From Roseobacter weihaiensis (GTDB lineage: Bacteria; Pseudomonadota; Alphaproteobacteria; Rhodobacterales; Rhodobacteraceae), in contig NZ_JACNMO010000008.1 in assembly GCF_020622345.1 (NCBI RefSeq), forward strand, positions 62,001 to 126,000: a stretch of DNA of 64,000 nt, written 5' to 3'. Of the stretch, positions 4,093 to 26,292 are shown piece after piece. Positions within the stretch are counted from its first letter, which is position 1; the number at the start of each line of letters is the position of its first letter. Below the pieces are notes generated by a model. It had not been told where the DNA came from and made no database searches. It worked only from the letters and a program-made list of their open reading frames with translations. A program made the translations under genes and the position numbers.

Positions 4093-4382
4093 ATGACCAA
4101 TACGAAAACCGTCATCGAGCGTTTTCTCAAGTTTACCGAAACCCGAAATTCTGATGGTCATCGCGAGATTCTCGCTGAAGACTGCGTCTTTACCTCTCCC
4201 TACGCTGCTGAAGACGCGCCGACCCGCATTGAAGGCCGCGACGCGATCATTGAGCGCGCCCTGATCGGTGGATGGAAAACGCGTAAAAACATGAAAATCA
4301 TCGACTTCAGATATGATGTGCTCGCCGACCCGCAATGGGCGCTCATTCAGTGGAGCAACACCTCTACTACCGATGACGGTAA
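4093..4382 (+). pseudogene. SnoaL/NTF2-like protein, N-terminal half (split by inversion)
   Basis: Starts at ATG 4093 behind a GGAGAT ribosome site. It encodes about 96 residues of a SnoaL-like fold: an opening helix (VIERFLKFTETRN), the LAEDCVFTSPY strand, and IEGRDAIIER. Homology ends at 4382, where the frame runs into integrase sequence. The missing C-terminal half is on the minus strand at 25971-26169. Joining 4382 to 26169 gives one uninterrupted 162-residue frame. SnoaL-like proteins are small cyclases or isomerases or ligand-binding domains; the substrate cannot be told. Confidence 0.8.
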
Positions 4383-5175
4383 CGCAAGGCGTTTGAGCTG
4401 GAGGAGTTGAAGCGGGCGGAGTGGCATCTGCTTGAGCTGGGCGAAGAGGCGTTGGCGCATGAGAAGTTTGCCGCGGCGAAGCGGATGGCCGAAAGCCGCG
4501 GTTTTGACTACGTGCCGAGTGACATTCTGCTGCGGCGCTCCTTTGAGGAGAACCTACCCCGGCTGATGGCTGCGGCTGGCACAGAGACGCAGCCGACACC
4601 GCCCGAGGTGGCCAAGGCGATCCTGGGCGGCGTGGAGGTGGCCTTGCCGCCTCTACGGGAGGTGCTGCAAGAGTTCATCGCGCTGACCAAGACCAAGCAC
4701 ATGCGGAAGTCCGACCGCCAGCGGCATCTGTGGCGCCTGCCGAGAGAACGTGCGGTGTCTAACTTCGAAAAGGCCGTACCTCGGCGCGCGAAGGCTGGCA
4801 TTGATCGGATCACGCGGGAGGATGCGCTGGCCTTTCGGGCCTGGTGGGCGGCTCGGATCGAAGCGGGAGAGATCCGGGCCGAGACGGCGCACAAGGATTT
4901 TGGGCACCTGTCGCAGATCATTCGGCACTGGTGCGAGCTGAAGGGCCATACGGACCTTGAGAACCCTTTGCCAAGCTGCGGTTTGACAAGGCTATCGATC
5001 CGTTGGTCAGCCGCCCGCCCTTTTCGCGGCACTGGGTGGAGACGCGCTGCTCACCGCCGGGATCGATGATCGGGTGCGGGCAGACATTCTCGGTCACAAG
5101 TACAAAAGGCCGGTCTACGGGTCAGGCGGCGGGATGTCTTTGCGGCATCAGGCTTTGGCCGAGATCGCCCTGTGA
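4383..5175 (+). pseudogene. Tyrosine recombinase/integrase, C-terminal portion, frameshifted and internally deleted
   Basis: From 4383 the frame reads RKAFELEELKRAEWHLLELG and continues as the arm-binding/core-binding region of a DUF6538-type integrase (to about 4960). A one-base loss in a C run near 4966 shifts the frame. A second loss near 5046 shifts it again, and the last segment (5045-5175) carries the conserved ILGHKYKRPVYG box with the catalytic His and terminal Tyr. The central part with the first catalytic Arg is absent, implying an internal deletion. The first 41 residues lie at 26170-26292 on the minus strand. Confidence 0.8.
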
Positions 5176-5309
5176 TTTATCTTGCTGACGATTAACGAAA
5201 TCACCCCTTTTTTGGCCTGGTGTCTCCCGCCACCTGAGAGCCACCTTCATATCTTTCAATAGGTTATGCCCGGGAGGTGTTGCGCTTTGGGCAGGAACAG
5301 CGCGCGGGG

Positions 5310-5688
5310 ATAACCGCGCGCCATGTACGACCGTTTCGGCGCGCCGGGTTTCCTCGCCGCCTACAATGCGGGACCCGGACGCTACGCCGAACACCTCAGG
5401 ACGGGCCGCCCATTGCCCGCGAAACACGCGCCTATCTCGCGATGTTGACGCCGTTAGTCGGCGCGCCCTGCAGCGTCTCTGCAAACCGATTACAACAACT
5501 CTGCACCCGATTGGCGCGTTGCGCCTCTTTTTGTCCTGCAAGTCGACGGCAACACGACGCCCCCGCACGTGGACAATCTGGAGCTGCCGACGACGACTTC
5601 AGATGGTCCGTCACACACAGATGGTCCGCACATGCCAGAGCCATTGAACGAACTGTTCGTCCGCTTCGGTGCGGATATTTTGGAATGA
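5310..5688 (+). pseudogene. Lytic transglycosylase (conjugation type), C-terminal remnant with frameshifts
   Basis: Pieces in different frames read as the end of a lytic transglycosylase of conjugative elements. MYDRFGAPGFLAAYNAGPGR (from 5322) contains the AYNAG catalytic-domain signature. RETRAYLAML follows in a shifted frame, and the tail near 5510-5688 ends with EPLNELFVRFGADILE and a stop. At least two indels separate them. In integrative elements this gene opens the cell wall for DNA transfer. It lies between the integrase and relaxase remnants. Confidence 0.65.
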
Positions 5689-5934
5689 CGGTCCCGTTCG
5701 CAGATTGGCGCGTTCCGTCGTGCTCCATCGCATTCTTTGTCGGCTTGTGGAGAGCGGAGAGTGAACCAACAGCAGGACGGTGAGAAAAAAGGCCGCGCAC
5801 CAACTGATCCTACGGCGTTGCTATTGTTGAGCCTTTTATCCGCCTCGCAAGACGTCGCAGTGCCAAACACACTGCTCACTTACTGATTTCACAGCATTTC
5901 TGCTGTGCACCGCCTTTCGACAGGGGCGAACCGC

Positions 5935-7030
5935 ATGAGCAAGCGCGACAATGACCTCCGCATCAGACCGGGGCGCATTCGTGATCGCGGCGCCCGCGGC
6001 CAGAAGGCCAGGAGCTTCGTCGGCCAGGTCATGTGCACGGCGAAGAAAGCGGGACACACCGGCTATCGCTTCGACGGAGCCAAGCATAATGGCCGCGGTA
6101 AATCACGCTTCGGTCGCGGCCGCTTTGTCGGCGTCGCGCGCGGGCTTTCCCGCACCCAGCGGCGCGTGAGCATCAAGGCGCGGATCGTCCGCCATCGCGG
6201 CGCCCGTTATCGCTCCGCGCCGCTCGCCAAACGCATTGATTATCTGAAGCGCGACGGTGTCACCCGCGATGGCCGGGATGCAGCGATGTCCAACCGGGAC
6301 GGAAATGCTGCCGACGAACGCGCGTTCGCGTCAGCCTGTGAAGACGACCGGCACCATTTCCGCTTCATCATTTCGCCTGAGGACGCCGGGTCGATGGACG
6401 ATGTCCGCGCCTTCACGCGCGACCTCATGGACCAGGCCGAGCGCGATCTTGGAACGCAGCTCGATTGGATCGCCGTTGACCATTGGAACACCGATAATCC
6501 GCACATTCATGTTCTGATCCGCGACCGCGCTGACGACGGCAAGGACCTCGTCATCTCGCGCGATTACATCAGCCGCGGCTTTCGCGCCCGCGCCTAAGAA
6601 TTGGTCACGCTGGAACTCGGACCACGCACCGCGCGCGAGATCGCATCCGGTCTCGACGCAGAGGTGACGGCCGAACGCTGGACCGACCTCGACAAGGCGC
6701 TACGCAGCCGTGCTGACAACAACGCCGGCGTCGCAGACCTCCGGCCGGGATCGCCGCAACCGAGAGACCCCGATCTGCGCCAACGGCTGATCGGCCGCAC
6801 GCAGACCCTGGAGCGGCTCGGCGTCGTCGAAAAACTTGCATCAGCGGTCTGGACCCTCAAGCCGGGCGCCAAAGACACGCTACGCGATCTCACCGTGCGG
6901 GGTGACATCATCAAGACCATACACCGCGCAATGGGCGGGCGGGCTGAACAGCCAATTTCCGACTTCGCCATCGAGGCGGAGCCGTCCGAACCTAGCGGCC
7001 AGCGCGATCTGCACAGTCACATAGGGCGTG
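5935..7030 (+). pseudogene. VirD2-like relaxase (DUF3363 type), interrupted by a stop and 3'-truncated
   Basis: Starts at ATG 5935 and follows the family closely. It has a basic N-terminus, then RIDYLKRDGVTRDG (first nuclease motif), HHFRFIISPEDA, and the metal-binding histidines in VDHWNTDNPHIHVLIRD. A TAA at 6595-6597 interrupts RARA/EELVTLELGPR; a GAA-to-TAA change explains it, and the same frame continues as the family does (ELGPRTAREIASG) to about 7030. There it is cut off by unrelated sequence leading to the MFS gene. A full relaxase would be roughly twice as long. Confidence 0.8.
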
Positions 7031-7064
7031 GTAGGTCTCCCATTCTAGCTGGATGCTGGATGGA

Positions 7065-8204
7065 TCAACAACTTGTCGTGCGACGGGTCTGCCTGCGCGC
7101 GAGGCCGGCTATCAATGCGATCAACGCGAAGATGATCGTAGCCCCGTCAGGGCTGCTCATATCGAGAACTATGCCGAAGATTGGCGCTCCGGCGGTCTGG
7201 CCTATCGCGATGGCGAGGAATGCGGCCGTGAGCCCGCTTGCGGGCCGGTCGGGCAGCGCCGACACGCCCCAGACAAGATAGACGCCGGTCAGCAGGATGT
7301 AGGCCGCTCCGAACAACGCGCCTCCACCGATCACAAGGGGGGGAAAGGACGTTGACGAGCCTACCAACCAAATGCCGACCGCCAGACCGCCGAGGGACGC
7401 GAGGTGAACGACATTTACCCCGAACCACGAACAGAGCGGTCCCGCTATGGCACCTGCAATACCGGCGGCACCGATGACGATCCAAAGGGTTCCGATCACA
7501 CGTGCGTCCCAACCGTGATTCCGCGACACGAGTTCGCCGCCGAAGGACCAGATCGCCGTGCTAGCCGCGCCCATCAGAAACGCTGCGATAACAAGGATCA
7601 GGATATCGGCCGACATCCGGGGAAGACCGCGAGCGACGTCGGGGTCTCTGGTCCCAGCTCTCGGAACGGCCCAGAACGTCGCTATCGTGGCCGCCGCAGC
7701 CGTTACGGTGAAAGCTCCGTAGGCCAGCCGCCAATCGGCTCCGAGGTAGAGGGCGACGGGCCCCGAGAGCGCCACGCCAGCGCCGGTTCCGGAATTGATG
7801 ACCGTGTTCACGGTGTCTTGGCGTTGGCTCTCCACAGCCAGAACGACCGCTGCTGCGAGCGGCGGCGAGGCAAGACCGGTGCTCATTCCCGCGAAGAGCA
7901 CGGCTGCCGCTAGGACCGCAGGGGATTGGGCGATTGCGATCAGGGCCATACCGCTCCCGGCGACGATGCCGGCACCGATGGCGATCGGGCGCGGGCCATA
8001 CCATTCGACGAGCCCGGCAGAGGCGACGATCGCGAGGCAATACCCCAGGAACGATGCGCCCGCGATCATCCCGGCAAAGGTCGGCGTCAAAGACAGGTCG
8101 GCGCGGATTTCCGGAAGGAACAATCCGAAGGCGAACCGTGCGAGGCCATAGCACACCGCGATCAGGGCAAAGCCCGTTGCACCCAGTCGAAGCGTCGCAC
8201 TCAT
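7065..8204 (-). CDS. MFS transporter, YbfB/YjiJ-like
   Basis: A 379-residue major-facilitator protein with about twelve hydrophobic segments. The N-terminus shows YGLARFAFGLFLPEIRADL and the helix 2-3 loop region EWYGPRPIAIGAG, both typical of the YbfB/YjiJ group. Its ATG overlaps the stop of the upstream tetR by four bases (ATGA), so the two are transcribed and translated together. It is probably an efflux pump induced when the TetR repressor is released; the substrate is unknown. The C-terminus (LARRQTRRTTSC) lies beside the relaxase break, so this pair was probably inserted into the decayed element. Confidence 0.85.
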   Translation of the reverse strand: MSATLRLGATGFALIAVCYGLARFAFGLFLPEIRADLSLTPTFAGMIAGASFLGYCLAIVASAGLVEWYGPRPIAIGAGIVAGSGMALIAIAQSPAVLAAAVLFAGMSTGLASPPLAAAVVLAVESQRQDTVNTVINSGTGAGVALSGPVALYLGADWRLAYGAFTVTAAAATIATFWAVPRAGTRDPDVARGLPRMSADILILVIAAFLMGAASTAIWSFGGELVSRNHGWDARVIGTLWIVIGAAGIAGAIAGPLCSWFGVNVVHLASLGGLAVGIWLVGSSTSFPPLVIGGGALFGAAYILLTGVYLVWGVSALPDRPASGLTAAFLAIAIGQTAGAPIFGIVLDMSSPDGATIIFALIALIAGLARRQTRRTTSC

Positions 8205-8725
8205 TTTCTCGCGTTCGAGACGAGAATGTCCGCAGCCTCACGAGCCGCAGAGGCGACCTCCGGTCCGCGGTAGGCTGCTCCAGCCGTCGCGCCTTCGAAG
8301 AGGACGAGAAGTTGATCGACCAGGTCCTCGCGCGGTTCATCGAGTTGAACGCGAACGATGTCACCGATCCGCTCTCGAAGGAACGCCTTCTGCGTCTGGA
8401 CCGCCGCGACGATCTCGGGCGTATCCCCGCCGGTCTCGCCAAGTGCCCTCAGGAATAGACAGCCGCGCGCGCCCTCGATACGGATCCAGTCCTCAAGCGC
8501 GGCGAAGAACGCGTCGACCGTCTGGACATCGAGGCGAGAGCGAAACCGTCGGTCACGTTCGTCGAGTACCGCGGCCATTAGGCCGGTCTTGCTTCCGAAG
8601 TGTTTGTAGAGAGTCCGACTAGACACCCCCGCCGCATCGGTGAGCCGATCCATGCCGGAGGCCATGAAGCCGTTGCGATCGAAGAGCGGTTCGACGGCCT
8701 CGAGGATGGCTTTCTTGAAATCCAT
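8201..8725 (-). CDS. TetR/AcrR-family repressor
   Basis: A 174-residue regulator. The N-terminal helix-turn-helix shows MDRLTDAAGVSSRTLYKHFG with the family's typical YKHFGSK end (about residues 24-47), followed by an all-helical ligand domain. It ends inside the start of the MFS gene (ATGA overlap) and begins 8 bases from a perfect 22-bp palindrome. This is the usual layout of a self-regulating TetR-efflux pair. Confidence 0.9.
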   Translation of the reverse strand: MDFKKAILEAVEPLFDRNGFMASGMDRLTDAAGVSSRTLYKHFGSKTGLMAAVLDERDRRFRSRLDVQTVDAFFAALEDWIRIEGARGCLFLRALGETGGDTPEIVAAVQTQKAFLRERIGDIVRVQLDEPREDLVDQLLVLFEGATAGAAYRGPEVASAAREAADILVSNARK

Positions 8726-8732
8726 AAAGCCA

Positions 8733-8754
8733 ATGTAAAACGATCGTTTTACAT
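8733..8754. promoter_or_regulatory. Perfect 22-bp palindrome, TetR operator
   Basis: ATGTAAAACGA followed by its exact reverse complement, centred at 8743/8744. It lies just upstream of the tetR ATG (8723-8725). Size, perfection and position fit the binding site of the adjacent TetR repressor, which would shut off its own two-gene operon. Confidence 0.8.
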
Positions 8755-9398
8755 GTCAAGCTTAAAGGTGTGGTGGGCGGCGGCATATCTGAGAATGTGT
8801 GTGGCACCAAGCGGAACACTTCGCCCAGAAACAACGTATCCGCCAAAGCTGCCGTTAGTACACTGCACATCATCGGTCAAAGTTGGCTCGAAAGCCGTCG
8901 TAAGCAACAAGGCGCTCGGAAGGCTCACGGTTTCAGTGCGCCAGCGTAGTGCGCTTGCGTACCGCTTCGCAGAACTGTTCACTACAGCGCATCGGGCAGT
9001 CATCTCATCGTAGTGCGATGGCGAAGGAATAGTTCGCACATTCATCTCGCATGGCCCGCCACTTGCACAATGCAAACCGAAGATGAGGTCCTTAACGGGG
9101 CCTTTTTTCTTTTTGTCTCAAAGAACTTTAGCAAGACCAGCCAACCTTCGGAGACTGGCCGCAAGGCTGATTTCGGTCTCTAACGCCCCGTGTCTCTTTC
9201 CACCCGCCCTGCGGTTTCGGCGAGTCGGGTTCAAAAATCTTCATAATTTCAGGCAACTAGATTGTAGCGCCTGCGCATCTTTTGCGTTTGATCTTCTCGA
9301 TAACTTTGCATTTTGAACTCCAACACTTGCGTCGTGGTGCTGCGCAAGGGTGCGAAGTCTTTGATGAAAAAGGAACTTTCCATCCATAGCCTGGCACC
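8755..9398. other. Gene-free stretch with a low-copy repeat-like segment
   Basis: No frame here resembles a protein I know. Around 8836-8920 there is a segment similar to one at 10451-10545 (see the repeat entries). The rest (9000-9398) shows no recognisable RNA or gene. Confidence 0.4.
8836..8920 (-). repeat. Degenerate repeat, copy A
   Basis: Contains TCGGTCAAAGTTGGCTCGA, which matches copy B (TCGGTCAAAGTGGGCTCAA, from 10493) at nearly all of 19 positions. Both flanks keep weaker similarity, including a translated EPTLTD step on the minus strand of both. Function unknown. Confidence 0.35.
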
Positions 9399-9587
9399 AT
9401 GTCAAACGGGCCTTGGACAAATAAAGAGAACGACCTGATCGTCGCGGATTACTTCGCGATGCTGGCCGATGACATCGCCGGGAATGCGCGCGTGGTTCGG
9501 TATCTGATGCAGACGCGTCCGGAATTTCTATCCGAATTTCAGACCACCGCCGAGATGGAGTCGGTGGTGCCGGTGGAGGCTAAGTAG
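9399..9587 (+). pseudogene. Short remnant with a DUF3883-type N-terminus
   Basis: The 62-residue frame begins SNGPWTNKENDLIVADYFAM, which resembles the opening of larger DUF3883-type proteins. After DDIAG it changes to RYLMQTRPEFLSEFQT, which does not fit that family. It is most likely a deletion-fused leftover. It overlaps the end of the convergent minus-strand remnant. Confidence 0.35.
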
Positions 9588-10085
9588 CCGATACGGTCGA
9601 GCAACGGGTACCCGAACCCGATAAGCCTGGGGACCGCAGGAGACGCCGCACTGTACCAGGCTTTGAGATCGGCGTGTTCAGGGTGCTTGGGGTCGCCTAT
9701 GGCTTCCAGGAACTCTTCGTAACCAGGGAAGCCGCCCACGTCTTCGGGCGGGCAGCGGCCAGCAATGTCTGTGAGGCGGGGGTAGAGTTCGCCGGGGACA
9801 GGAGCGCTGATCTTGCCGATCTTGATCTTGTGGTCCCAGCTGTCGCCGAAGTCGTAGAGATAGTTGATCGTGCGTGCGCCGGTGTCTTTGATCAGCTCGG
9901 CCAGAGTGGTCTTGTTGGCGGGCAGGTCATCGCCGTCGAAGTCCGGGTCCGGCAGCCCCCAGGTCGCGCCACCAGCCTCGAACATGTAGAGATGTGAGTT
10001 GGTCCAGCCCATGGCCGCCTGGATGGTCAGGTGGAAGCGGTCGAGGCGGATATGGCCGACACCTGCAGGGTGATGTATGGCTTTC
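9539..10085 (-). pseudogene. Plasmid pRiA4b ORF-3-like protein, both ends truncated
   Basis: The central part matches the pRiA4b ORF-3 family: IRLDRFHLTIQAAMGWTNSH, then LYMFEAGG, then YLYDFGDSWDHKIKI and CPPEDVGGFPGYEEFL. The N-terminus is fused to a resolvase fragment on the same strand near 10085. The C-terminus after LKAWY runs into unrelated sequence. This family is common on plasmids and mobile elements; its function is unknown. Confidence 0.7.
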
Positions 10086-10350
10086 CAAGGTTCCACCCAT
10101 CTCTTTGAGCCTGCGCCGCAGTGCCCAATGGCTTTCAATGTCTCGGGCCAAGCGGCTGATATCATCAATGACAACAACCACAGGCCCGCTTTGGGATTTG
10201 ATCAAGCCAAGCATGGCATTGAAGGACGGCCTGTCCGCCACCCCGCCTGAGACAGCGCGCTCATAGAAAGACTCAATGACCGCGTAATTTTTCCGGGAGG
10301 CATATTCGCGGCAGCGTGGTTCCTGGTTTTCGAGCCCAGACGACAGCCTT
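10086..10350 (-). pseudogene. Serine recombinase (resolvase) N-terminal fragment
   Basis: The minus-strand frame reads GLENQEPRCREYASRKNY, then VIESFYERAVSGG, RPSFNAMLGLIKS and IDDISRLARD, the middle of a resolvase catalytic domain. The catalytic serine near the N-terminus and the DNA-binding end are missing. It joins the pRiA4b ORF-3 remnant near 10085. Confidence 0.65.
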
Positions 10351-10450
10351 CTGAAACGCTTTGTGCGTCGCAGTGGGGTCAGTGGGGCGGCTTCTGAGTA
10401 TTTGAAAAGACCTCAGATGAGGGTTTAAGGGCTATTGGAGTGGCCTTGTG

Positions 10451-10545
10451 TAGCCGCTGTCGCCGAAGCAGGCATCCGTGTGGCGCTCAGCGTCGGTCAA
10501 AGTGGGCTCAACGGGAACTGCAGTATTGCGCAGCAACTGTCCGAG
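10451..10545 (-). repeat. Degenerate repeat, copy B
   Basis: Shares about 17 of 19 bases of its core (from 10493) with copy A near 8836-8920, in the same orientation. It lies in the otherwise gene-free stretch 10351-10637 between the resolvase fragment and the sensor kinase gene. Confidence 0.35.
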
Positions 10546-10637
10546 GGCGCGTCGCACCCCGACCATTCCTCGTCTTCGCATAGAAACCATGCATGACTGG
10601 TACTCTAGTGATGGCTCCTCACCCAGCTGCGGTACCT

Positions 10638-11975
10638 TCAATGTGCGAGTGGAAGCCTTACAGTTGCGCGTAATCCGGCTGCCGGCAGGTTGGCGAGCGT
10701 CACTGTTCCGCCATGGGCCGCGATGACGTCACGAACGATGGCCAGTCCAAGTCCAGCCCCGCCTGTATTGGTATTGCGGCTGTCTTCGCCCCGTACGAAG
10801 GGTTCGAACACCTCTGCAAGTTTTTCCTCGGGAATACCGGGGCCGCCATCGTCTATCGTTACAACCGCTGTCTCCGCCGCGCGGGTCATGACCGTGCGGG
10901 CCTCCTTTCCGTATTGCAAGGCATTGTCGAGCAGGTTCCCGACTGCTCGGCTGAGCGCCACAGGACGGCCACGCACAGTGGCAGGGTCAACACATTCGAA
11001 TGATACGCCCCGCTCCGCACAGGCCCGTTCAACCAGCGCGCCGAGGTCTATGTCGCACATGCCCTCGCTCTCACCAGCTCCACGGGCATAGGCCACAAGG
11101 CCGTCAGCCATCACCGTCATTTCCTCTAGGGTGCGGATCATCGGATCGCTGTCCTCGGGCTCGAGCATCTCGGCCCGGATGCGCAAGCTGGTGATTGGTG
11201 TGCGCAGATCATGACCCACGGCAGCCAGCATGCGCATGCGTTCTGCATCGAAGCGAGCGATGCGCACCTGCATATCGTTGAAGGCCGTCGCTGCGTCGCG
11301 CATCTCGCGCGGTCCTTCCGTCTTGACAAGAACCGTTCGGTCCCCGCGGCCTGCTGCGCGGGCGGCTGTGGCAAGCGTGGCCAGCGGTTGCGTCAAGCGG
11401 CGGACAAAGATCAGCCCGACGCCCAATATAGCGGCCAGTGACAGCCCGAGGATCAAGAGGAATGCACCTTCTTCGATCCACGGGGGCGGTGGCCGCCTGC
11501 CACGGGACCGAATGTTCAGCCATTGTGTAGCCTCCCCCTCGGCGACGACAAGGCGCACGGATGCAACAACAGCCACCTTTTTGCCGCCCTTTCCGTCATC
11601 CCGTTGGACGCGGATCGCAGCCCTTACGTCACGCCCGCCAAGGGCCTCGGTCAGTGCGTCGGCAAGGGCGAGCGCGCGCGGTGTGTCGCGCTGGGTCCTG
11701 ACCAGCGGTGTCGGATCGACCGTCACTTCGGAGGATCGGGTCGAGGCGGAGTTGGCCAGGCCGGGGCGGGCCTGTGGCAGAGCCGCTTCCAGGGCAGGCA
11801 CCAGCGAGACAATGCGTTCCTGTTCGCGGGCGATCAAAGCCGCGCGATCCAGGCGGGTCCGCTCGTAGGACAGGACCGCAAGCGCCAGCAAGTTCGCACT
11901 GACAAGCGATGCGGTCAAAAGCAGCGCAAAGCGGCCTGCGATGCCATCCGGCAAAAGTCTTTTCAGCGTTTTCAA
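10638..11975 (-). CDS. Sensor histidine kinase (EnvZ-like)
   Basis: A 445-residue membrane kinase. Two membrane helices (about 16-36 and 170-192) flank a periplasmic domain, then come a HAMP region (about 193-245) and the dimerisation box AAVGHDLRTPITSL with phospho-acceptor His255. The ATP-binding part has the N box (GNLLDNALQYG, Asn347/351), DDGGPGIP (375-382) and GAGLGLAI (406-413). The TTG at 11973-11975 overlaps the stop of the upstream response regulator, which favours this start over the ATG at 12017. It phosphorylates that regulator; the signal is unknown. Confidence 0.9.
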   Translation of the reverse strand: MKTLKRLLPDGIAGRFALLLTASLVSANLLALAVLSYERTRLDRAALIAREQERIVSLVPALEAALPQARPGLANSASTRSSEVTVDPTPLVRTQRDTPRALALADALTEALGGRDVRAAIRVQRDDGKGGKKVAVVASVRLVVAEGEATQWLNIRSRGRRPPPPWIEEGAFLLILGLSLAAILGVGLIFVRRLTQPLATLATAARAAGRGDRTVLVKTEGPREMRDAATAFNDMQVRIARFDAERMRMLAAVGHDLRTPITSLRIRAEMLEPEDSDPMIRTLEEMTVMADGLVAYARGAGESEGMCDIDLGALVERACAERGVSFECVDPATVRGRPVALSRAVGNLLDNALQYGKEARTVMTRAAETAVVTIDDGGPGIPEEKLAEVFEPFVRGEDSRNTNTGGAGLGLAIVRDVIAAHGGTVTLANLPAAGLRATVRLPLAH

Positions 11976-12685
11976 ACCTGTTCCACATCTGCAGTGAGCC
12001 GGTAGCCCCCGCCCCATTCGGTGACGATCAGGCGCGGAGATGACGCATCCACTTCGATCTTTCTGCGCAATCGGCTCACGCTGTTGTCGATGGCCCGATC
12101 ATATGCCTTGGCGTCACGACCGGCTGTCAGGTCCAGCAGCCTGTTGCGGGACATCACCGTTTGCGGATGGTCCAGCAGGACGCCCAGCAACCGGCTTTCC
12201 CCGGATGTCAGGGCGACGACGCGGCCGTCGGTATGCCGCACTTCCTGCGCGTCCGGGTCGTGCGTCCAGGGGCCAAACCTTCTGAGGCCCTTGGGCGTCT
12301 GCGGCACGGGTGGTGGTCTGCGCCGCAACACGGCGCGGATGCGCGCCACCAACTCGCGCGGGTTGAACGGTTTCACGACATAGTCGTCTGCGCCAAGTTC
12401 CAACCCCACGATGCGGTCGGTTTCGTCCGCCATGGCTGTCAGCAGGATCACGGGCGGGCCGCCCCGCGCCACCAACCATCGACACAGGCTCAGCCCGTCT
12501 TCACCCGGCATCATCACGTCCAGCACGATCAGAGCCGGCTCGCTTTCTTCAAGCAAACAACGCGCCTCCATGGCATTGGCGGCCATCTGCGTGCGCAGGC
12601 CCTGCTTGCGCAGATACTTGTCCAGCGGTTCGCGGATATCGCGGGCATCGTCCACGATCATCACCTGGGGGGCCGTCTGCTCCAT
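11972..12685 (-). CDS. OmpR-family response regulator
   Basis: A 237-residue regulator with a receiver domain (about 8-120; acidic pair Asp12/13, phospho-acceptor Asp56 in LDVMMPG, Thr83, Lys105 in VVKPF) and a winged-helix domain (about 135-233). The ATG at 12685 follows a strong AGGAGGTG site, so it is preferred over 12736. Its stop overlaps the kinase start. It is divergent from the EF-hand gene, and direct repeats in the shared upstream region are likely binding sites. Confidence 0.92.
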   Translation of the reverse strand: MEQTAPQVMIVDDARDIREPLDKYLRKQGLRTQMAANAMEARCLLEESEPALIVLDVMMPGEDGLSLCRWLVARGGPPVILLTAMADETDRIVGLELGADDYVVKPFNPRELVARIRAVLRRRPPPVPQTPKGLRRFGPWTHDPDAQEVRHTDGRVVALTSGESRLLGVLLDHPQTVMSRNRLLDLTAGRDAKAYDRAIDNSVSRLRRKIEVDASSPRLIVTEWGGGYRLTADVEQV

Positions 12686-12764
12686 TTCACCTCCTGTACC
12701 GGACCGGTTTGTGCCTCTTTTAGCGGCAAGGGACACTCACTCCGAGTCTAGGCGCTATTTTATT

Positions 12765-12809
12765 TGTCGCAATTTGTATCAGCACAGGCCATTGCGACAG
12801 ATCGCGACA
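12765..12809. promoter_or_regulatory. GCGACA repeats, candidate response-regulator binding site
   Basis: GCGACA occurs at 12794-12799 and again at 12804-12809, a 10-base period typical of OmpR-family direct repeats. A reversed copy, TGTCGC, lies at 12765-12770. The cluster sits between the divergent regulator and EF-hand genes. The role is inferred. Confidence 0.45.
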
Positions 12810-12908
12810 AACAAGATCCCCGCCTGACAAACCTTTCTGGCACGAGGTGTCCATATGGAAATCAGACGAGGCGAATGGGCGCCTCGATTTCCAAGGAAAG
12901 GATACCCA

Positions 12909-13439: not shown

Positions 13440-13539
13440 CCGGCTGCGGGGCGGCGCGGGTCGCCCCGGCCTTATCGCCAAAGGTGCCGCCGGAGTTTGC
13501 GTGAATAGGCGGCACCTCTCAAAACGAACAGGGAGACAG

Positions 13540-14535: not shown

Positions 14536-14651
14536 AGAGCGCCGCGCCCTCGTTTCTGGCGGATCTCCTGAGCCGTCTTGGGGACGGCGGGCAGTATGAT
14601 CTCATCTGCGCGCCTTCCGTTTCTGAACTGGCACCCAATAAGGAGAAGACC

Positions 14652-15299: not shown

Positions 15300-15336
15300 C
15301 GGTCCGATCCCCGCACACCCAGCAAAGGAGGCTGAC

Positions 15337-15498
15337 GTGAAAACAGGAACAGACATGAAAGGACGCGTGATCGCAGAACCGCTGGGCGCGTGCGCGAAGC
15401 GTGACGGAAATGCCTTAAGGTTTAGAGCCGGACGGTCTGAAGGAAGCCGTTCGATGCACCGGTTCAAATCGTCCCATACACGATGGGCACAGTCATGA
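15337..15498 (+). CDS. Small basic ORF coupled to the RND adaptor gene
   Basis: A 53-residue frame with a GTG start behind AAAGGAGG. Its TGA overlaps the ATG of the next gene (ATGA at 15495-15498). The peptide is rich in Arg, Ser and Gly and matches no family I know. The ribosome site and stop-start overlap suggest it is translated, perhaps only as a leader that couples translation of the adaptor. Confidence 0.35.
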   Translation: MKTGTDMKGRVIAEPLGACAKRDGNALRFRAGRSEGSRSMHRFKSSHTRWAQS

Positions 15499-16712: not shown

Positions 16713-16716
16713 GCAC

Positions 16717-19700: not shown

Positions 19701-19830
19701 TGTGGGGGGCCTGGGTCTGGCGACGGTGGCCACCCTGTTTGTCACGCCTGTTGTCTACAAGCTCCTTGCCGGTTTCTCGAAACCGCAGGCAGAAGAGATG
19801 CGGCGACTTGAAGCTGAGCTTGCATCATGA
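16717..19830 (+). CDS. RND (AcrB/MexF-type HAE1) efflux pump permease
   Basis: A 1037-residue inner-membrane pump with the standard twelve-helix, two-loop RND layout. The proton-relay residues are present: Asp410/Asp411 in GMVVDDAIVV of helix 4 and Lys929/Asn930 in GIMAKNGILIVEF of helix 10. The N-terminus (FVRRPVLAIVVNMLILVGG) is typical. The ATG at 16717 is 4 bases after the adaptor stop. It probably exports hydrophobic compounds or envelope material; the neighbours do not reveal which. Confidence 0.93.
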   Translation: MAQNTPATAPSNLSDMTALFVRRPVLAIVVNMLILVGGLAALAGVAVRELPEVDSPTITIRTSYSGASAETMDQEVTGIVESAAAQVAGVKSMSSSSSYEESRVTVEFTTSTDLNVAASDLRDEVSRISSSLPDEIDDGPTIVKADADAEPIMRLAVTSETMEIDALTDLVDDEVVDRLSAVEGVAEVEVFGEREQTFLIDIDQAQLATRGLTVADLIDALDTVALDVPAGSLESSAQDFTVRATASLRTPEDFDRLIIADNVRLADVAVVTLGPDAESSVLLANGRPGLGLNIIRQAGSNTLSISNGVHDVVAVMQETLPEGVTIAVTSDDATFINGSIVEVLKSLGLAIAIVVGVIFVFLRNVQATLIPALTLPVALIGTIGGIWLAGFSINIITLLALVLATGMVVDDAIVVLENIVKKRDAGEPVRAAAVRGTREVFFAVITTTATLAAVFIPLSFLPGTSGGLFREFGFVLAIAVTISSFVALSLCPMLASRLLSNRPPGEAEVKIGVIGRIGSWGSRRYAAVLRASLSAPLVVITAAVICSGAAWVIYGTLEEELTPPEDRGVALLRINAPEGVSLAYTERQQREIAALLQPFQDSGEIDYIFSLVGRGGSNEGRMVMRLAPWGERARSQNEIVADMNQLIASVNGVRAFVIQPNSLGIRGGGQGLRMALTGSDYDVLATAANALRTELEADAEMGRIQLSYETTQPQILIEVDRERAEDLGIDISGLSAAMRALLDGDEVGEVFIDGDAIPVKLISTTHPVDDPTDLENIFLKASDNRIVPMSSIVSIEEMAVAPSLDREEQLRAITLSAELSDDMALRDGIERIEAAAERILPPDVGLIPLSEAATLEETSSGLGMVFGFAIVIVILVLAAQFESFLSSLIIVGTVPLGLACAVFALAFTSISLNVYSQIGLVLLVGIMAKNGILIVEFANQLRDTGLTVQDAIERAALQRLRPVMMTMVSTVLGGVPLVISTGAGAEARVSLGWVIVGGLGLATVATLFVTPVVYKLLAGFSKPQAEEMRRLEAELAS

Positions 19831-19877
19831 CTGCCACACCCACCCGCTTGCCCGCATCACATCGGAGGATCTGACAC

Positions 19878-20447
19878 ATGCACTATGATTTCATCTCGCG
19901 CCTGAACCACTGGATCATCGCCATCGCCATGATCGGGATGCTGCTGTTTGGTCTTTACCTCGCATACGGCGGGTTGGAGCGTGAGGCGCGGGGCCCTCTG
20001 ATCGGTATCCACCGCTCCATCGGGGTGCTTGTTCTGATCTACGGCACCTGGCGTGTGATTTGGCGGGTCGTTCAAGGCTTTCCCGACCCGGTCGCCCAGA
20101 TGTCACCTTTGCAGCACCGGCTGTCGAAAGGGGCGCACTGGGGTCTGTTGGCAGGCATTCTGATCATGCCGCTTTCGGGCATCGGCTTCACCGTGTTTCG
20201 CGGGCGTGACGTTGATGTGTTTGGCATGTTCTCGATCCCCGGTGTGGCAGAGGTGCCCTGGATCGTGTCGCTATGCTCCGCACTTCACCACTATGTCGGG
20301 CTTGGCTTCTGTGCGATTGTGGTGCTGCACATCGCGGCCGCCTTCAAACACCATCTGGTAGACGGGGACGCAACGCTGACGCGCATGATCTCGGGCCGAC
20401 CTGGCCTAGCCTCTGACCGCGTGTCAATGTCGGCGGACAAACAATGA
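19878..20447 (+). CDS. Cytochrome b561-type membrane protein
   Basis: A 189-residue four-helix protein. Candidate haem ligands are His11 in SRLNHWIIA, the histidine in IGIHRSIGVL, those in SALHHYVGLGF, and that in VVLHIAAAF. This fits bacterial YodB/CybB-type cytochrome b561, which passes electrons between quinol and periplasmic partners. The start follows CGGAGGA, 47 bases after the RND gene. It gives this cluster a redox component. Confidence 0.9.
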   Translation: MHYDFISRLNHWIIAIAMIGMLLFGLYLAYGGLEREARGPLIGIHRSIGVLVLIYGTWRVIWRVVQGFPDPVAQMSPLQHRLSKGAHWGLLAGILIMPLSGIGFTVFRGRDVDVFGMFSIPGVAEVPWIVSLCSALHHYVGLGFCAIVVLHIAAAFKHHLVDGDATLTRMISGRPGLASDRVSMSADKQ

Positions 20448-20538
20448 CCCCTTGTCCAGACACCCGTCATCATGAAGGGCACGTTGCCCCAAGGCAAACC
20501 TCACTTCACACTACCACTCACCAAAAGGGAGACGTTCA

Positions 20539-21426
20539 ATGAAACGCATGACAGCCAAGGACTTCGATCAGGACCTTCTCGATCTTTATGATTTCTACGC
20601 CCACGGAAAGATCACCAAACGGGAGTTCCTGGACCGCGCCGGCAAGTTCGCCGTCGGTGGGTTGACTGCCATGGCCCTGCTGGACATGCTCAGCCCCAAC
20701 TACGCGATGGCCCAGCAAGTGTCGTTCAATGACGCTGACATCCACGCCGACTACATCATGTATCCCTCACCGAACGGCACAGGCGATGTGCGCGGCTATC
20801 TGGTGCGGCCCGCTGATGTGGAGGGCCCGCTACCAGCGGTGCTGGTCATCCACGAAAACCGCGGGCTAAATCCTTACATCGAAGACGTTGCGCGCCGTCT
20901 GGCCAAGGCGGGGTTCATGGCGCTGGCGCCGGATGGTCTCACTTCGGTCGGCGGGTATCCGGGCAATGATGCCGACGGTCGTGAGCTGCAACGGACTGTC
21001 GACGGCGTTGCACTGATGAATGACTTCTTCGCGGGCTTCGAACATCTGCTTTCGCGCGAGGACAGCACAGGCCGCGTTGGCGCTGTCGGCTTTTGCTATG
21101 GCGGCGGCGTGGTCGGCGCAATTGCCGTGGCATACCCGGAGCTGGCCGCCGGGGTGCCCTTTTACGGGCGGCAACCGGCGTCAGAGGATGTGCCCAAGAT
21201 CGAAGCCCCGCTTCTGATCCAGATGGGAGAGCTTGACGAGCGCATCAACGCCGGATGGCCGGCCTTCGAGGCGGCCCTGAAAGCAAATGACAAAGTCTAC
21301 GAGGCCTATATCTACGAAGGCGCGAACCACGGGTTCCACAACGACAGCACGCCGCGCTATGATGAGGCTATGGCTGAACTGGCATGGGAGCGTACAATCG
21401 GGTGGTTCAGCAGCTATCTGTCGTAA
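20539..21426 (+). CDS. Dienelactone hydrolase-family protein (YghX-like)
   Basis: A 295-residue alpha/beta hydrolase. The catalytic triad is visible as Cys186 in GFCYGGG, Asp233 in GELDERI and His264 in GANHGFH. The N-terminus carries a conserved [20 protein letters not shown] segment followed by a hydrophobic stretch (about 37-55), as in YghX-type enzymes. That segment may be a Tat-like or anchor signal, though the twin arginine is replaced by KR. It ends the plus-strand cluster begun by the EF-hand gene. Substrate unknown. Confidence 0.88.
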
Positions 21427-21727
21427 TGTCTGATACCATCGGGCAATCAGATGAGCCACCCGCCTTCCAATCCTTTTCCGCGTTTGGGTGGCTCGTCCGA
21501 CGAACGGTTCGCTCGCCAAACCCGCTTACATGCCGCGCACGCAACCTTGGCTTTTTGCGTTGGGATCTGGGGATCTGTTAAGCCCGCTTTTACGCGTGCC
21601 TGGCCCGCGAAACCGCTGGGTCTATTTGGGTATTGCGGGGTGGAGTGGAAAAGCAAGTGCGCCTTGCAAGAAATAGGGAGGAAATGCAAAGGCTCATGCT
21701 CGCTTTGCTGCAACAAAAACGCTACGA
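21427..21727. other. Gap with no recognisable gene
   Basis: Open frames exist on both strands, but their translations are not protein-like to my eye. The next sequence is a broken CMD gene, so this is probably part of the same decayed region. Confidence 0.4.
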
Positions 21728-22000
21728 ATGGCCCTTTGCCGGCATTCGCGAGGCCATATGGCCAACACCATGATCGCCGCGGATTGGGGTTGCGAGATCG
21801 CAGCATTACCTGACTTGGGTGGGCAAACGGTCCCGCAGCTCCGCATTCACATCGCCGGAGGACTGAAAGCCGGTCTACCCCAAACCGAGATAGCAGACGT
21901 AATCTGGCAAATGTCGCTGTGCTGAGGATGCCCAGCGGCAATCAACGCACTGAACATAGCTTTGGATGCTTTCAAGGAAGAGGGCGAAGATGGAGAATAA
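21728..22000 (+). pseudogene. Carboxymuconolactone decarboxylase (CMD)-family C-terminal remnant
   Basis: The frame reads VPQLRIHIAGGLKAGLPQTE then IADVIWQMSLC, a TGA at 21923-21925, and continues in frame as GCPAAINALNIALDAFKEEG to a stop at 21998. This fits the end of a CMD/AhpD-fold protein (usually QMxxYGGFPAA), with point changes making Cys and stop codons. The N-terminal part is absent. Confidence 0.6.
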
Positions 22001-22084
22001 TCCCTAGCCAATTCCTGGCAGCTGCAAAAGGGCCGATACTGGTGAAAAACTCGACCTACCAGATGTTGTGCTTAGTCGGGATGG

Positions 22085-22260
22085 GCCTTCCCAACCCGCT
22101 GCCATTGCGGCCAAGGCCAAAGCCCACGCACTTTTCAAAAACGCTCTCGAACAGTCGGTGCATCAAATCGCCATCAGCGAAGTGCCCGTGCCGGTTATCG
22201 GAAAAGGTCGAGCGGTCCGGCACATGGCCTTCCAAGCCCAGCTTGCAAAACCACCTGTAC
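22085..22260 (-). mobile_element. IS1182-family transposase fragment
   Basis: The minus strand reads YRWFCKLGLEGHVPDRSTFS then DNRHGHFADGDLMHRLFESV, matching the segment RWFCKLDLTDPVPDPSTFSK of the larger IS1182-type element at 38-39 kb but clearly a different copy. Only about 60 residues remain, and the upstream edge abuts the NAD-binding remnant at 22261. Confidence 0.7.
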
Positions 22261-22498
22261 CCGCCAGATCGTCCGCCGGCAGATCGAAGGCCGCCTTAAA
22301 CGGCACGGCCTCTAGAAGTACGTTGCCAAAGGCGATGGCCTCTTTCGGTGTTCCTACCAGCGCGCCGGGCGGGCGTTCCGTAAGAGATGCAATCGATACC
22401 GGGTTGCGGGAGGAAAAGAAAACCTCATGGCCTGCCTGCGCCCAAAGGCCTCCAAGCGGAATTTCTATATTGCCACTGCCGATAATGCCGACTTTCAT
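22261..22498 (-). pseudogene. NADP-binding (F420-reductase-like) N-terminal fragment
   Basis: Starts at ATG 22498 and reads MKVGIIGSGNIEIPLGGLWA then QAGHEVFFSSRNP, a Rossmann start typical of NADPH-dependent F420 reductase-like proteins (normally GxGxxG; here the third glycine is replaced). After about 78 residues it is cut by the IS1182 fragment. Confidence 0.6.
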
Positions 22499-22605
22499 TT
22501 CGCCCTGCTTTCTCTGCCAACTGAACATCAATGAAATCATTCTCGCACACGATTGTTACGTTCATGGCCAGATCGCCCGAACCAGAGATAGCGACAACGA
22601 CACCA

Positions 22606-22942
22606 TCAGTTTTCAAATGCCTTCCGCTGCAGGGAATCAAAGAATTCCAGGAACAGGGAAATTCTGGAATCCCGGATCTGAACAACAACGATGTACTCGT
22701 TGCCATAGTCTTCTCCGGTCTTGGTGTTTGTCAGATGGCCTTGAAACTCAATGATTACCCATTCCGAATCGGCGACAGGATAGACCGCCTTTACTGGAAA
22801 TCCTTTCGGCTTCTTGTAGCCTTTTGGTCCCCACGAAATAGTCGCGCAGATCATCGATGCCAATGATCGGCACCCTTCCATCTGGCGCGACCGGAAACTC
22901 CAAGCGTGCCTCATTATGCCAAAGCGTCATGACCGCTTCCAT
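22606..22942 (-). pseudogene. SnoaL/NTF2-like protein, frameshifted
   Basis: Two minus-strand frames join near 22820. The upstream part reads MTLWHNEARLEFPVAPDGRV then IIGIDDLRDYFVG. The downstream part reads KGFPVKAVYPVADSEWVIIE and ends RISLFLEFFDS. Together they make a SnoaL-like domain resembling the middle of the intact ABM-NTF2-ABM protein (LEFPFAPEGF...EKYFRDAL). A single indel separates them. Confidence 0.6.
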
Positions 22943-22944
22943 GT

Positions 22945-23285
22945 CGCAACGTCCGCACGGGCGATCACCACGCTTTCACCGGGTGTATCGCGAAGTTTGA
23001 TAAAGCCAGAACCCTGTCCATTGTCGACAGAACCGGGCCGCAGAATGGTCCAGGCAAGGGATCGTGCACGCACAGCGCGCTCACAAGAAGGAAGCGTCGA
23101 ATAGCCGTGGCAACCGCCGCCTGGACCAGAGTTTGACAGCGCGGTGTTCAATGGCGTCCTCGTAACCGGATGGACCGGCAGCGGCAAAGATGACGGCGTC
23201 GACCCCATCGAGCCATTGATCAGAGGTGTCGGACGTCAGATCGCCAATGACAACAGTCGCTGATTTGGTATCGGGCGCGCCGTTT
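22945..23285 (-). pseudogene. NAD(P)H-binding (SDR/NmrA-like) remnant, frameshifted
   Basis: The upstream frame reads TVVIGDLTSDTSDQWLDGVD then AVIFAAAGPSGYEDAIEHRAVK. The downstream frame reads LAWTILRPGSVDNGQGSGFI then SVVIARADVA, the family's conserved WTILRPG motif. The switch is near 23100. The N-terminal glycine motif is missing and the 5' end abuts another NmrA-like fragment. Confidence 0.6.
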
Positions 23286-23575
23286 CGAGGACCACCTTCT
23301 GCCAACCAACCATATCGTCGCCAAGCGGCGTGATCAGGCACAAGCGATTGACGCCGTCGGAGAAAGCTTTAGCGAGATCGTTCGGATCAAGAGAAAACCG
23401 TACCGGAAGCACCAGCGCCGGATCGATCGTTGTCAGCAACCGCGCCGCCGGGCCGTCAGGATCACGTGTCGCGACCCGGATTTCGCCGATCCGTGGGTCA
23501 AGCGACAAGAGACAAGAGATGCGCAACTTCACGCCCGATGTTTCCAGTGGCGCCTGTGACGAGAACGGTTGGCAT
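23286..23575 (-). pseudogene. NmrA-like NAD(P)-binding protein, N-terminal fragment with frameshift
   Basis: From ATG 23575 the frame reads MPTVLVTGATGNIGREVAHL, a textbook GATGNIG nucleotide-binding start, then hits a stop. The continuation is in another frame (IGEIRVATRDPDGPAARLL, later NRLCLITPLGDDMV). It ends near 23286 against a different NAD-binding remnant. Confidence 0.65.
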
Positions 23576-23674
23576 GAGAGATGATTCCCTTCAATTCAGA
23601 TCGGCGTTGCCTGTCGTCTAGGGCCGTCGCATATTCAGCGTGAACATAAGGCAGCTCCGGGTCTTTGTTCGGTT

Positions 23675-23724
23675 GCGCTTTCGAACCGCATAACCGGTGT
23701 CCACTTATGCTGAAAGTGCTCTAA
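23675..23724 (-). repeat. Partial copy of an alphaproteobacterial palindromic repeat
   Basis: On the minus strand it reads TAGAGCACTTTCAGCATAAG then TGGACACCGGTTATGCGG, the same pattern as one arm of the 25865-25974 element (CTAGAGTGTTTCCAGGTGAA then GTGGATACCGGTTCACC). Such intergenic repeats are frequent in Rhizobiales genomes. Confidence 0.5.
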
Positions 23725-24761
23725 AGTTCGACGTGCGATTGCGCGGCGACCTCGCCGTCAACGAGCGCGGCGATCTTGCCATTGACCTCGGCCACCCACT
23801 CCGCCGCCATATGCGCATTGAAGGCGGCCTCGGTGTCCCAAGCCTCAAAGATCGTGAACAGCGCCGGGTCGGCTTGCGCGCGAAAAACCCGGTAGAACTG
23901 ACAACCGGCGTCCTTGGCCGCGCGAGCACGCACTTGCCGCATCAAGGCCGCCAAGTCATCGGCGGCGTCCGCGCGGGCGCGGAGGTTGACCGTCACCGTG
24001 TGGGCGGACGCCGCATCGCCAGCGACCTCGTCGGCGGAAGGAAAGCCAGCCACCCGCTTTACAGAGTCGTAGTGTTCCTTGAAATGCGCAATCTTGCCAT
24101 TGCGCACACGAACGATGGTTATGTAGCTGTTTTCCTGCACGGTCGGATCGTCGCCGACAGTCAACTGGCTGTCGAATTCAATGACGCACGCATTCGGATC
24201 TGCCAGCGGTGTGATGACACGATTGGGATATCCTATCGGGACGACCACCGCCAAGGCGTCGCGGAAGTATTTCTCAATGGCGGGTTGACCTTCGACGCAT
24301 TCCGTAAACCCCTCAGGGGCAAATGGAAACTCCAGAACAGCGTCCTCGGTCCACATTCCAGCGATGGCGTCCGCGTCCGAAATCGCCAATGCGTCCAAGA
24401 AGGCGGTGGCCGCAATGGCAGCCTGATTATCTTCGATCACACTGATCATCTCCCATTGCTGGGAAACATCTTCGGGCGCCTCAGTGAGAAGGTCACCCGC
24501 TTCCTCCAAGAACGAAGAGAGCTCAGGCGGGCGATGAGCGCGGTGGTATTCGTCAAACCCTGATTTCGTCTTCCAGGTTTCATAGAGCAGAAACTGTGAC
24601 GGGTTTGCCTTGTTCTGGTGAAGGTCGAAACGGGTCATAGTGAAACCGGGTCCGACACGGCGCTCGCCGTCCGTTACGGCAAGCAGCTTTCTGCGAACTT
24701 CCTCCTCCTTTCCGGGAACAGCTTCGAGAATGTCGGTGATTATAAGCTCTGGGTTTGTCAC
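23721..24761 (-). CDS. Three-domain ABM-NTF2-ABM fusion protein
   Basis: A 346-residue soluble protein. Residues about 1-97 form an antibiotic biosynthesis monooxygenase (ABM)-type ferredoxin-like domain (SQFLLYETWKTKSGFDEYHR). Residues about 110-240 form a SnoaL/NTF2-like domain (FLDALAISDADAIAGMWTED, then LEFPFAPEGF). Residues about 252-346 form a second ABM domain (GCQFYRVFRAQADPALFTIF, EAWDTEAAFNAHM). The start at 24761 follows CGAGGAG. It lies 35 bases downstream of the SDR gene on the same strand, so the two form an operon. ABM and SnoaL domains often act on quinone- or polyketide-like compounds; the actual reaction is unknown. Confidence 0.8.
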   Translation of the reverse strand: MTNPELIITDILEAVPGKEEEVRRKLLAVTDGERRVGPGFTMTRFDLHQNKANPSQFLLYETWKTKSGFDEYHRAHRPPELSSFLEEAGDLLTEAPEDVSQQWEMISVIEDNQAAIAATAFLDALAISDADAIAGMWTEDAVLEFPFAPEGFTECVEGQPAIEKYFRDALAVVVPIGYPNRVITPLADPNACVIEFDSQLTVGDDPTVQENSYITIVRVRNGKIAHFKEHYDSVKRVAGFPSADEVAGDAASAHTVTVNLRARADAADDLAALMRQVRARAAKDAGCQFYRVFRAQADPALFTIFEAWDTEAAFNAHMAAEWVAEVNGKIAALVDGEVAAQSHVEL

Positions 24762-24796
24762 AGGTAAATCTCCTCGTTCTTGAGCTGTGGTGCCGA

Positions 24797-25573
24797 TTAG
24801 TTGGCGACGTAGCCGCCGTCGACGGACAGCGCGATGCCGACGATGTTGGAGGCTTTGGGTGAACAGAGAAAAACGACGGCTTCCGCGACCTCGTCGGCCG
24901 TGCCGGTCCGGCCAATCGGATGGGATTTGTCAAAGCCCGCTCTCGCAGTTTTGCGCTCACCCTCGTCTGGTATGGACTCGAAGAATTTGCGCAGCATTGG
25001 CGTATCAATGCCGCCGGGATTGACCGCGTTCACCCGAATGCCCTGCTTGGCATAATCGATCGCGGCAACCTTGGTCAGCCCCATGATGGCGTGCTTGGAT
25101 GCGCAATACACCGACGCCCCCGGGACCCCGACAAGACCGCCGCCGGAAGAGAGATTGACGATAGCGCCGCCGCCCTGTTTCAGAAGATGCGGGATGGCAT
25201 GCTTCATGACCAGGAATGTCCCGCGAACATTGGTTGCGAAGACCTCCTCATAGCTTTCCAGACGCTGGTCTGCGAAGATGTTCACTTCGCCCTGTGTGCC
25301 AGCACTGTTGATCACATAGTCCAACTGGCCGAAAGCTGACGCGGCATCTGCAACAAGGCGCTCGATAGACGCCGGATCCATCAGATCCGCTTCGATCGAC
25401 TGGATCTTACCGCCAGCAGCGTTGACCTCAGAGATGGTCTTTTTAAGGCCCGCGCTACTGCGTCCCGAGATAACGGTTTTCACACCTTCTTTCGCGAGCG
25501 CGACCGCCGTCGCCTGTCCGATGCCGGAGCTTCCTCCGGTGATCAACGCGACTTTTCCTTGCATTGACGTCAT
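24797..25573 (-). CDS. SDR-family oxidoreductase (classical)
   Basis: A 258-residue classical short-chain dehydrogenase: nucleotide motif TGGSSGIG (12-19), NSAG (89-92), Asn115, catalytic Ser142/143, Tyr156 and Lys160 (YCASK), and PGGIDTPM after the active site. Arg38 after the second strand (ISGRSS) suggests NADP preference. It is the first gene of an operon with the ABM-NTF2-ABM gene. Before the inversion it would have followed the SnoaL gene and AraC regulator on one strand. Confidence 0.9.
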   Translation of the reverse strand: MTSMQGKVALITGGSSGIGQATAVALAKEGVKTVISGRSSAGLKKTISEVNAAGGKIQSIEADLMDPASIERLVADAASAFGQLDYVINSAGTQGEVNIFADQRLESYEEVFATNVRGTFLVMKHAIPHLLKQGGGAIVNLSSGGGLVGVPGASVYCASKHAIMGLTKVAAIDYAKQGIRVNAVNPGGIDTPMLRKFFESIPDEGERKTARAGFDKSHPIGRTGTADEVAEAVVFLCSPKASNIVGIALSVDGGYVAN

Positions 25574-25864
25574 TTCCGTCTCCCGTTCACTTCAGTTGAA
25601 GGAGCTTGTTCGAAGCTACCTCTGTTCTGAGTGAAAATAGGAAACGGCTGGATCAGGGTATTGCACAAAGCGGATGAGTGATGACGAGATCCAAACAAAA
25701 GCAAATATCGCGCCACGCCGCGCCGCTGAAGCTTTTTGAAAGCCATCTTCAGAAAGAAATGAAATGCGCTGTGCCAAAACCTCGACTGGAATTCAATCAG
25801 GCAGCGGGATAGACAGTATTGTGCAAAGATTCTGGCGCGCCGGTCATAACTCTGCGAATGCGCG

Positions 25865-25974
25865 CTAGAGTGTTTCCAGGTGAAGTGGATACCGGTTCAC
25901 CGTCCGTCCGGAAACGCGTTCAAACAAAAAGTTAGAGCCGTTTCGCGATTTCATGTAAAGCAAAACGACTCTAG
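25865..25974. repeat. 110-bp palindromic intergenic repeat
   Basis: Bounded by CTAGAGT (25865-25871) and ACTCTAG (25968-25974), with inner GTTTCCAGGTGAAGTGG / ACCGGTTCACC arms and GAGCCGTTTCGCGATTTC. This matches the general form of the dispersed palindromic repeats of Rhizobiales. It overlaps the 3' end of the SnoaL half-gene and supplies its stop codon. It suggests this cargo came from, or passed through, that group. Confidence 0.6.
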
Positions 25975-26169
25975 TGACCGTCTATTGCTCGTGCTTCACT
26001 GACCGCGGCGAATGCAAAAAAATGAGCGTGGTAGGTGACGGTCGATATTATGGTCGGGCGCGTGGGTCGCCCGGGGGCCAGTTCGCGCAAGGGGTTATAA
26101 TATTCGATAACTTCCTTCATCTTACCGTCCACCACTCGAATGACATCGACATAGTCTTGAGCATAGAGC
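25971..26169 (-). pseudogene. SnoaL/NTF2-like protein, C-terminal half (split by inversion)
   Basis: The minus strand from 26169 reads LYAQDYVDVIRVVDGKMKEV then IEYYNPLRELAPG, and ends at TAG 25973-25971. DYVDVIRVVDGKxxxxxEYYNP is the typical last strand pair of SnoaL-like proteins. There is no start; upstream sequence is the integrase front. Joined to 4093-4382, the total is 489 bases, a single in-frame gene. Confidence 0.8.
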
Positions 26170-26292
26170 TTTGGCCACGCTCAGATCAGCCGTCCGCAAC
26201 GCCTGCCCGGTCTTGCCCAGAACCTTCCCAAAGAGATGCTTTGGCACGTTCATCGCAAAGTAGTACCGCCCCCGATCCAACGTCAGCCCCAT
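26170..26292 (-). pseudogene. Integrase N-terminal fragment (DUF6538)
   Basis: From ATG 26292 it encodes 41 residues, MGLTLDRGRYYFAMNVPKHL then FGKVLGKTGQALRTADLSVAK, the N-terminal DUF6538 domain of tyrosine integrases. At 26170 it switches to the SnoaL back half. Its own continuation is at 4383 on the plus strand, and joining the two stays in frame (AKRKAFELEE). The ATG is about 150 bases from the 3' end of tRNA-Ser, pointing away from it. Confidence 0.8.

Follow-up and report, generated by a model that had tools for sequence, protein, structure and literature searches.

How does a gene come to change in mid-frame into the inside of another gene, when the beginning of that second gene changes in the same way into the remainder of the first, on the opposite strand and at the far end of a 21,787-bp segment? 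The question is posed by a window of 64,000 nucleotides from Roseobacter weihaiensis, comprising bases 62001-126000 of contig C90 (206,072 bp) in a draft genome of 5.35 Mb and 91 contigs (G000, hereafter the own genome). On the plus strand of this window a SnoaL_2 coding sequence gives way at 4383 to the inner part of a tyrosine-recombinase integrase, and on the minus strand an integrase running from 26292 switches at 26169 to the remainder of the SnoaL-like gene. A preliminary description of the window explained this as a reciprocal inversion that cut two genes, and comparison with relatives supports it: the SnoaL-like gene is continuous in Eilatimonas milleporae, the source of our outgroup locus L041, and the integrase gene is continuous in G014, a genome of the same genus (the other relatives compared are G007 and G008, of that genus too, and G002, G005, G006, G010 and G012). 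We put at roughly three in four the probability that the event was a single illegitimate inversion in the lineage of this genome, an ordinary repair accident.

The front of the SnoaL-like gene (4093..4382, plus strand), 96 codons and two nucleotides to the left of the left breakpoint, matches Pfam SnoaL_2 at 2.8e-6 and shows 78.8% DNA identity to L041 10013-10284. Its back (25971..26169, minus strand), recognized by translation and by its match to L041, closes the inverted segment on the right and contributes one nucleotide and 66 codons with the stop, a TAG at 25973-25971; there are internal stops in neither piece. Checked in the sequence, the strands, the sum of 290 + 199 = 489 nucleotides, the 163 codons including the stop and the AA common to both junctions are all as first described. 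L041 10013-10284 matches window 4111-4382 on the plus strand (E 3e-59), and L041 10283-10398 matches window 26171-26055 on the minus strand (E 2e-17); the two matches meet at the breakpoint, indicating that the SnoaL halves were once one gene. The Eilatimonas gene is a single unbroken frame with 77% identity over residues 3-132. The frame of the proposed 163-codon restoration holds; its residues 133-162 are without a counterpart in Eilatimonas, whose gene ends about four codons past the end of the match.

The second gene is known from the same kind of evidence. The integrase front (26170..26292, minus strand; DUF6538 and Phage_integrase), assigned by homology and by the Pfam content of the G014 homologue, extends over 41 codons from its ATG to the right of the right breakpoint, and the back part (4383..5175, plus strand), a pseudogene recognized by homology to G014, opens the inverted segment on the left. 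G014 locus L005 matches the window at 26449-26170 on the minus strand with its bases 1202-1502 (E 2e-77) and at 4381-5060 on the plus strand with its bases 1501-2182 (E 0). Numbered by the G014 protein (L005; 473 residues when the count starts at the stop before it), the window keeps residues 1-83 and 84-277 with no gap between them at the protein level. The claim that undoing the inversion restores the integrase in frame thus stands across the junction, at residues 83|84, and fails beyond it: there is a frameshift near residue 278, and residues ~315-429 are gone, which is most of the Phage_integrase match (317-450). The front also lacks seven residues found in G014. Judged from these lesions, the integrase would be dead even if the segment were turned back.

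Uncut integrases are not confined to G014, as G010 has two copies (residues 2-462 and 2-472) and G012 one (1-472), and a paralogue in the own genome, on contig C57 beside a tRNA-Ser(TGA), is continuous over residues 1-357. This paralogue (L033 6820-8239) has residues 1-357 and 330-473 in different frames and is thus frameshifted too. In a sample of the family, 31 of 198 genomes (own included) have integrase matches, with 37 match rows, five of them own; among the 32 rows from other genomes, 28 cross residues 83|84 and the remaining four start downstream. No plasmid relative of the integrase reaches 60% identity (five records), and viral contigs searched for it gave no match.

Because the two genes act as rulers, both joins can be read to the base. 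The breakpoints lie at 4382|4383 and 26169|26170, positions that can slide by 2 bp owing to the common AA, which sequence comparison places at 4381..4382 (plus strand) in the left junction and at 26170..26171 (minus strand) in the right one. At both joins zero bases were lost or gained, and the overlap is limited to AA. In the SnoaL-like gene the ancestral frame across the break would read GGT-AAG-CTC, where L041 has GGC-AAG-CCC, and in the integrase GCC-AAA-CGC, where G014 has GCA-AAA-CGC. The 2-bp overlap is what chance would give: among 200,000 inversion breakpoints drawn at random in the window, 17% share at least 2 bp (P = 0.17). Two genes that are uncut in relatives have each been cut once, with their halves swapped in opposite orientation, and DNA searches of the genus returned no match row with the SnoaL-integrase join as it stands in the window. 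A past reciprocal inversion is supported as the reading that would account for both outgroup matches at the exact breakpoints as well as for the order and strand of the genes behind the SnoaL back half. The kind of event is known; the clarity with which it shows here is unusual. For annotation it carries a warning, since four gene pieces in this region are two genes.

The limits of the inverted segment (4383..26169) follow from the junction matches in relatives and from its Pfam content, and gene order inside it and to its right agrees. In L041 the plus strand carries, in this order, an AraC gene (followed by frames on the minus strand), OprB, SnoaL, aldehyde dehydrogenase, SDR, NmrA and an F420-type oxidoreductase. 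In the window a partial NmrA-like gene (52%) and a truncated F420-type oxidoreductase (56%) occupy 22163..23576 on the minus strand, following the SnoaL back half at descending coordinates and colinear with L041 13568-15157, an arrangement such that the turned-back segment alone gives the Eilatimonas order and strand. In the stretches compared, the right flank from the tRNA-Ser is largely colinear, with gaps, over 26 kb in G006 and over about 46 kb in G002 and G005, and this colinearity with three relatives suggests that the inner segment is what moved.

In the SnoaL-like gene compared with Eilatimonas, dN is 0.14 and dS 1.36 for the front, and dN 0.13 and dS 2.9 (saturated) for the back. These values point to purifying selection, a signal that may predate the inversion entirely, and such selection suggests that the gene was probably a working one for most of its history. 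Close relatives of the gene are scarce. Its front half matches in two of 19 genomes of the genus, namely the own genome (the window gene and a distant copy on contig C18, 31%) and G008 (32%). The joined frame is matched in two of 394 genomes of the family at E <= 1e-10 (own and G069, 31%) and in one of 385 of the class at E <= 1e-15, the own genome alone. A scan of genome contigs found a single locus, L041 of Eilatimonas milleporae, and the 17 plasmid records related to SnoaL stay under 60% identity and under 80% coverage. The gene is rare and was probably acquired.

What could have broken and rejoined these genes? In the reading we favour, two breaks would have occurred in a decaying mobile region, one inside the SnoaL-like gene and the other inside the tRNA-Ser-linked integrase gene, and the broken ends would have been joined again crosswise, either through illegitimate end joining that does not depend on Ku or through a topoisomerase-type strand exchange. 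As a result the SnoaL-like gene would have been lost and parted from its left neighbour, and nothing points to a regulated switch. No inverted repeats link the two breaks, so that the hallmark of repeat-mediated inversion is missing at the breakpoints: exact inverted matches within 500 bp of the joins reach at most 11 nt, a length equalled or exceeded in 26 of 87 random pairs, and within 2000 bp at most 12 nt. A 12-nt inverted pair does span the left join, but its partner lies at 3481-3492, away from the right join. Nor was Ku, the mark of classical bacterial non-homologous end joining, found in the own genome (0 of 1), the control search finding it in one of 14 genomes (Bacillus subtilis). 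In this reading the locus preserves a repeat-free inversion with unusual clarity, and does so in a genome that yielded no Ku.

Several observations weigh against this account. Just one close SnoaL outgroup was found, Eilatimonas milleporae, and loss-free joining at both ends is slightly unusual for end joining. The confirmed inversions described for Salmonella had at least 12 bp of inverted homology, although the screen selected for longer homologies (PMC3411829). The most pointed observation comes from G007, where an integrase of the same family beside a tRNA-Ser(CGA) (L015 1512-1883; G007 contig C57, ~217.5-217.9 kb) stops at residue 82. On L058 coordinates its sequence leaves the family at 12210 and that of the window at 12213, and the bases past its break, GCTCTGCGCTC, agree with those of the window, GCTCTATGCTC, at nine of 11 positions before similarity ends (13/40). 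Random breaks should not produce a cut within 3 bp of another together with such a continuation. The chance of one broken copy landing within 4 bp is 0.6%, and the 9/11 agreement has P 0.0002 at the exact offset and 0.0016 with 3 bp of slack, all computed after the match had been seen. Shared descent of the two junctions is unlikely, given the different tRNA genes beside the two copies and a SnoaL frame that is still open. In G007 neither the rest of the integrase gene nor a SnoaL gene beside the cut integrase was found; its neighbour there is an AraC/7TM sensor gene, which relatives match only to the gene end and not into the 196 bp adjoining the break, and the partner sequence has no plasmid relatives. 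A third broken copy (G010 contig C1, near 141.7 kb; L110 2619-2746) is an integrase leader without the rest and ends about 160 bp from the window break.

The G007 break opens the question whether one base is favoured when genes of this integrase family are broken, as it would be if a recombinase making short staggered cuts, for example a serine recombinase whose 2-bp core is AA, acted at this point of the gene. Serine invertases of the Hin/Gin type perform conservative inversion with a 2-bp overlap, and the core of Hin is AA. The exchange seen here is likewise conservative with 2 bp in common, the G007 copy was cut at most 3 bp away, with a near-alike continuation, at a different tRNA-Ser in another species of the genus, and the own genome has eight Resolvase-family matches, one of them inside the segment. 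That match (9927-10412, minus strand) is nevertheless a remnant of the Resolvase N-terminal domain, covering profile positions 15-100 of 145 and overlapping a pRiA4b ORF-3-like gene at 9539-10177; it is the sole Resolvase match on C90, the other seven lying on other contigs, and no intact invertase was found in or beside the segment. Serine-invertase sites consist of two similar imperfect palindromes round a 2-bp core, whereas the four half-sites here resemble one another no better than random AA sites do (summed identity 16, P = 0.79; 7/12 for the best pair, P = 0.10), the G007 coincidence notwithstanding. The likeness to G007 stops after 11 bases, the agreement is met in one of the two other broken copies, and, with the integrase back missing from G007, the event there is not seen as an inversion. 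We therefore consider cutting at a preferred site unlikely, if worth keeping in mind. Were it true, an enzyme making 2-bp staggered cuts, perhaps the serine recombinase of another mobile element, would disarm rival integrases scar-free and could flip tens of kilobases.

Other ways of arriving at such a locus have to be set beside the repair accident. The draft state of the genome, with its 91 contigs, raises the suspicion that a contig ending at both breakpoints was joined in the wrong orientation, and plain concatenation would likewise give loss-free joins; yet the window contains no N, both joins lie inside one 206-kb contig, and with just 2 bp in common they offer no repeat at which an assembler would stop, which makes an artefact improbable. 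The open frame kept in both SnoaL pieces, together with the purifying selection relative to Eilatimonas, would suit reversible phase variation, with the two orientations present side by side and the SnoaL-like gene switched by the flip. Such a switch is very improbable, considering that no inverted repeats link the breaks, that the downstream genes are themselves decayed and that the selection signal may wholly be older than the inversion. An inversion mediated by repeats or insertion sequences that were lost later might be suggested by the relaxase-like and resolvase remnants in the region, but both genes are base-exact across the joins, which gives no space for the insertion and later loss of an element, and we find this hardly credible.

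Against this background the preferred illegitimate inversion can be compared with known cases. An inversion in Helicobacter pylori has also been credited to illegitimate recombination; its borders are described as hard to fix, while in the window the joins are base-exact and nothing is duplicated (PMC3046158). The spontaneous short-homology inversions of Salmonella share with ours the inversion at a short common sequence, which in the confirmed cases was longer than the 2 bp found here (PMC3411829). Among the papers listed by literature searches there was no case like the present one. A search for plasmid relatives of the left junction gave none. Compared with the Hin/Gin-type switches, the likeness lies in conservative inversion with a 2-bp overlap and the difference in the lack of paired half-sites and in a resolvase that is only a fragment within the segment.

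Genomic islands linked to a tRNA and equipped with a tyrosine-recombinase integrase are a known kind of element. The window resembles them in that the integrase begins just past a tRNA-Ser(GGA) (26443..26532, minus strand), its ATG lying about 150 bp beyond the tRNA 3' end, and differs from them in that the integrase is dead and cut and that the window, searched for a further copy of the tRNA-Ser end, matched at the tRNA itself alone. Integrase homologues adjoin tRNA-Ser(TGA), tRNA-Ser(CGA) and tRNA-Arg(ACG); no tRNA was found near the uncut G014 copy. A tRNA-Ser with a neighbouring gene at 170-171 kb of the contig was considered and set aside as a separate tRNA-Ser(GCT). The compared stretches of G002, G005 and G006 show no match left of the tRNA, apart from the same tRNA, and the G002 sequence beyond the tRNA matches other contigs of the own genome. 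A large foreign region, comprising window 1-26440 and C90 1-62000, may end at the tRNA-Ser.

The remaining genes around the breaks compare less closely with Eilatimonas. An SDR dehydrogenase (24797..25573, minus strand) adjoins the SnoaL back half, and the Eilatimonas cluster has an SDR in the same place, at a weak 26% identity. The left neighbour of the SnoaL front is an AraC-family regulator (2884..3936, plus strand) whose Eilatimonas counterpart is ambiguous, with two AraC genes matching: the plus-strand one at 65% over 101 residues and the minus-strand one at 32% over nearly the full length. Nothing on C90 matches OprB or the aldehyde dehydrogenase at E <= 1e-6. A short AraC-type helix-turn-helix frame at 2427-2807 (plus strand), 72% identical over 107 bp to the 3' end of the AraC gene, looks like a duplicated remnant. 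At 23721-24761 (minus strand) one frame combines SnoaL_2 domain and ABM monooxygenase matches, perhaps as a fusion, and at 5905-7281 (plus strand) a weak relaxase match, just below the Pfam cut-off, has a DUF3363 match in the frame next to it, and the two probably represent a decayed mobilisation gene. Inside the inverted segment, 10638-19830 holds a two-component system, a YHYH protein, an HlyD-type adaptor and an AcrB-type pump in one block.

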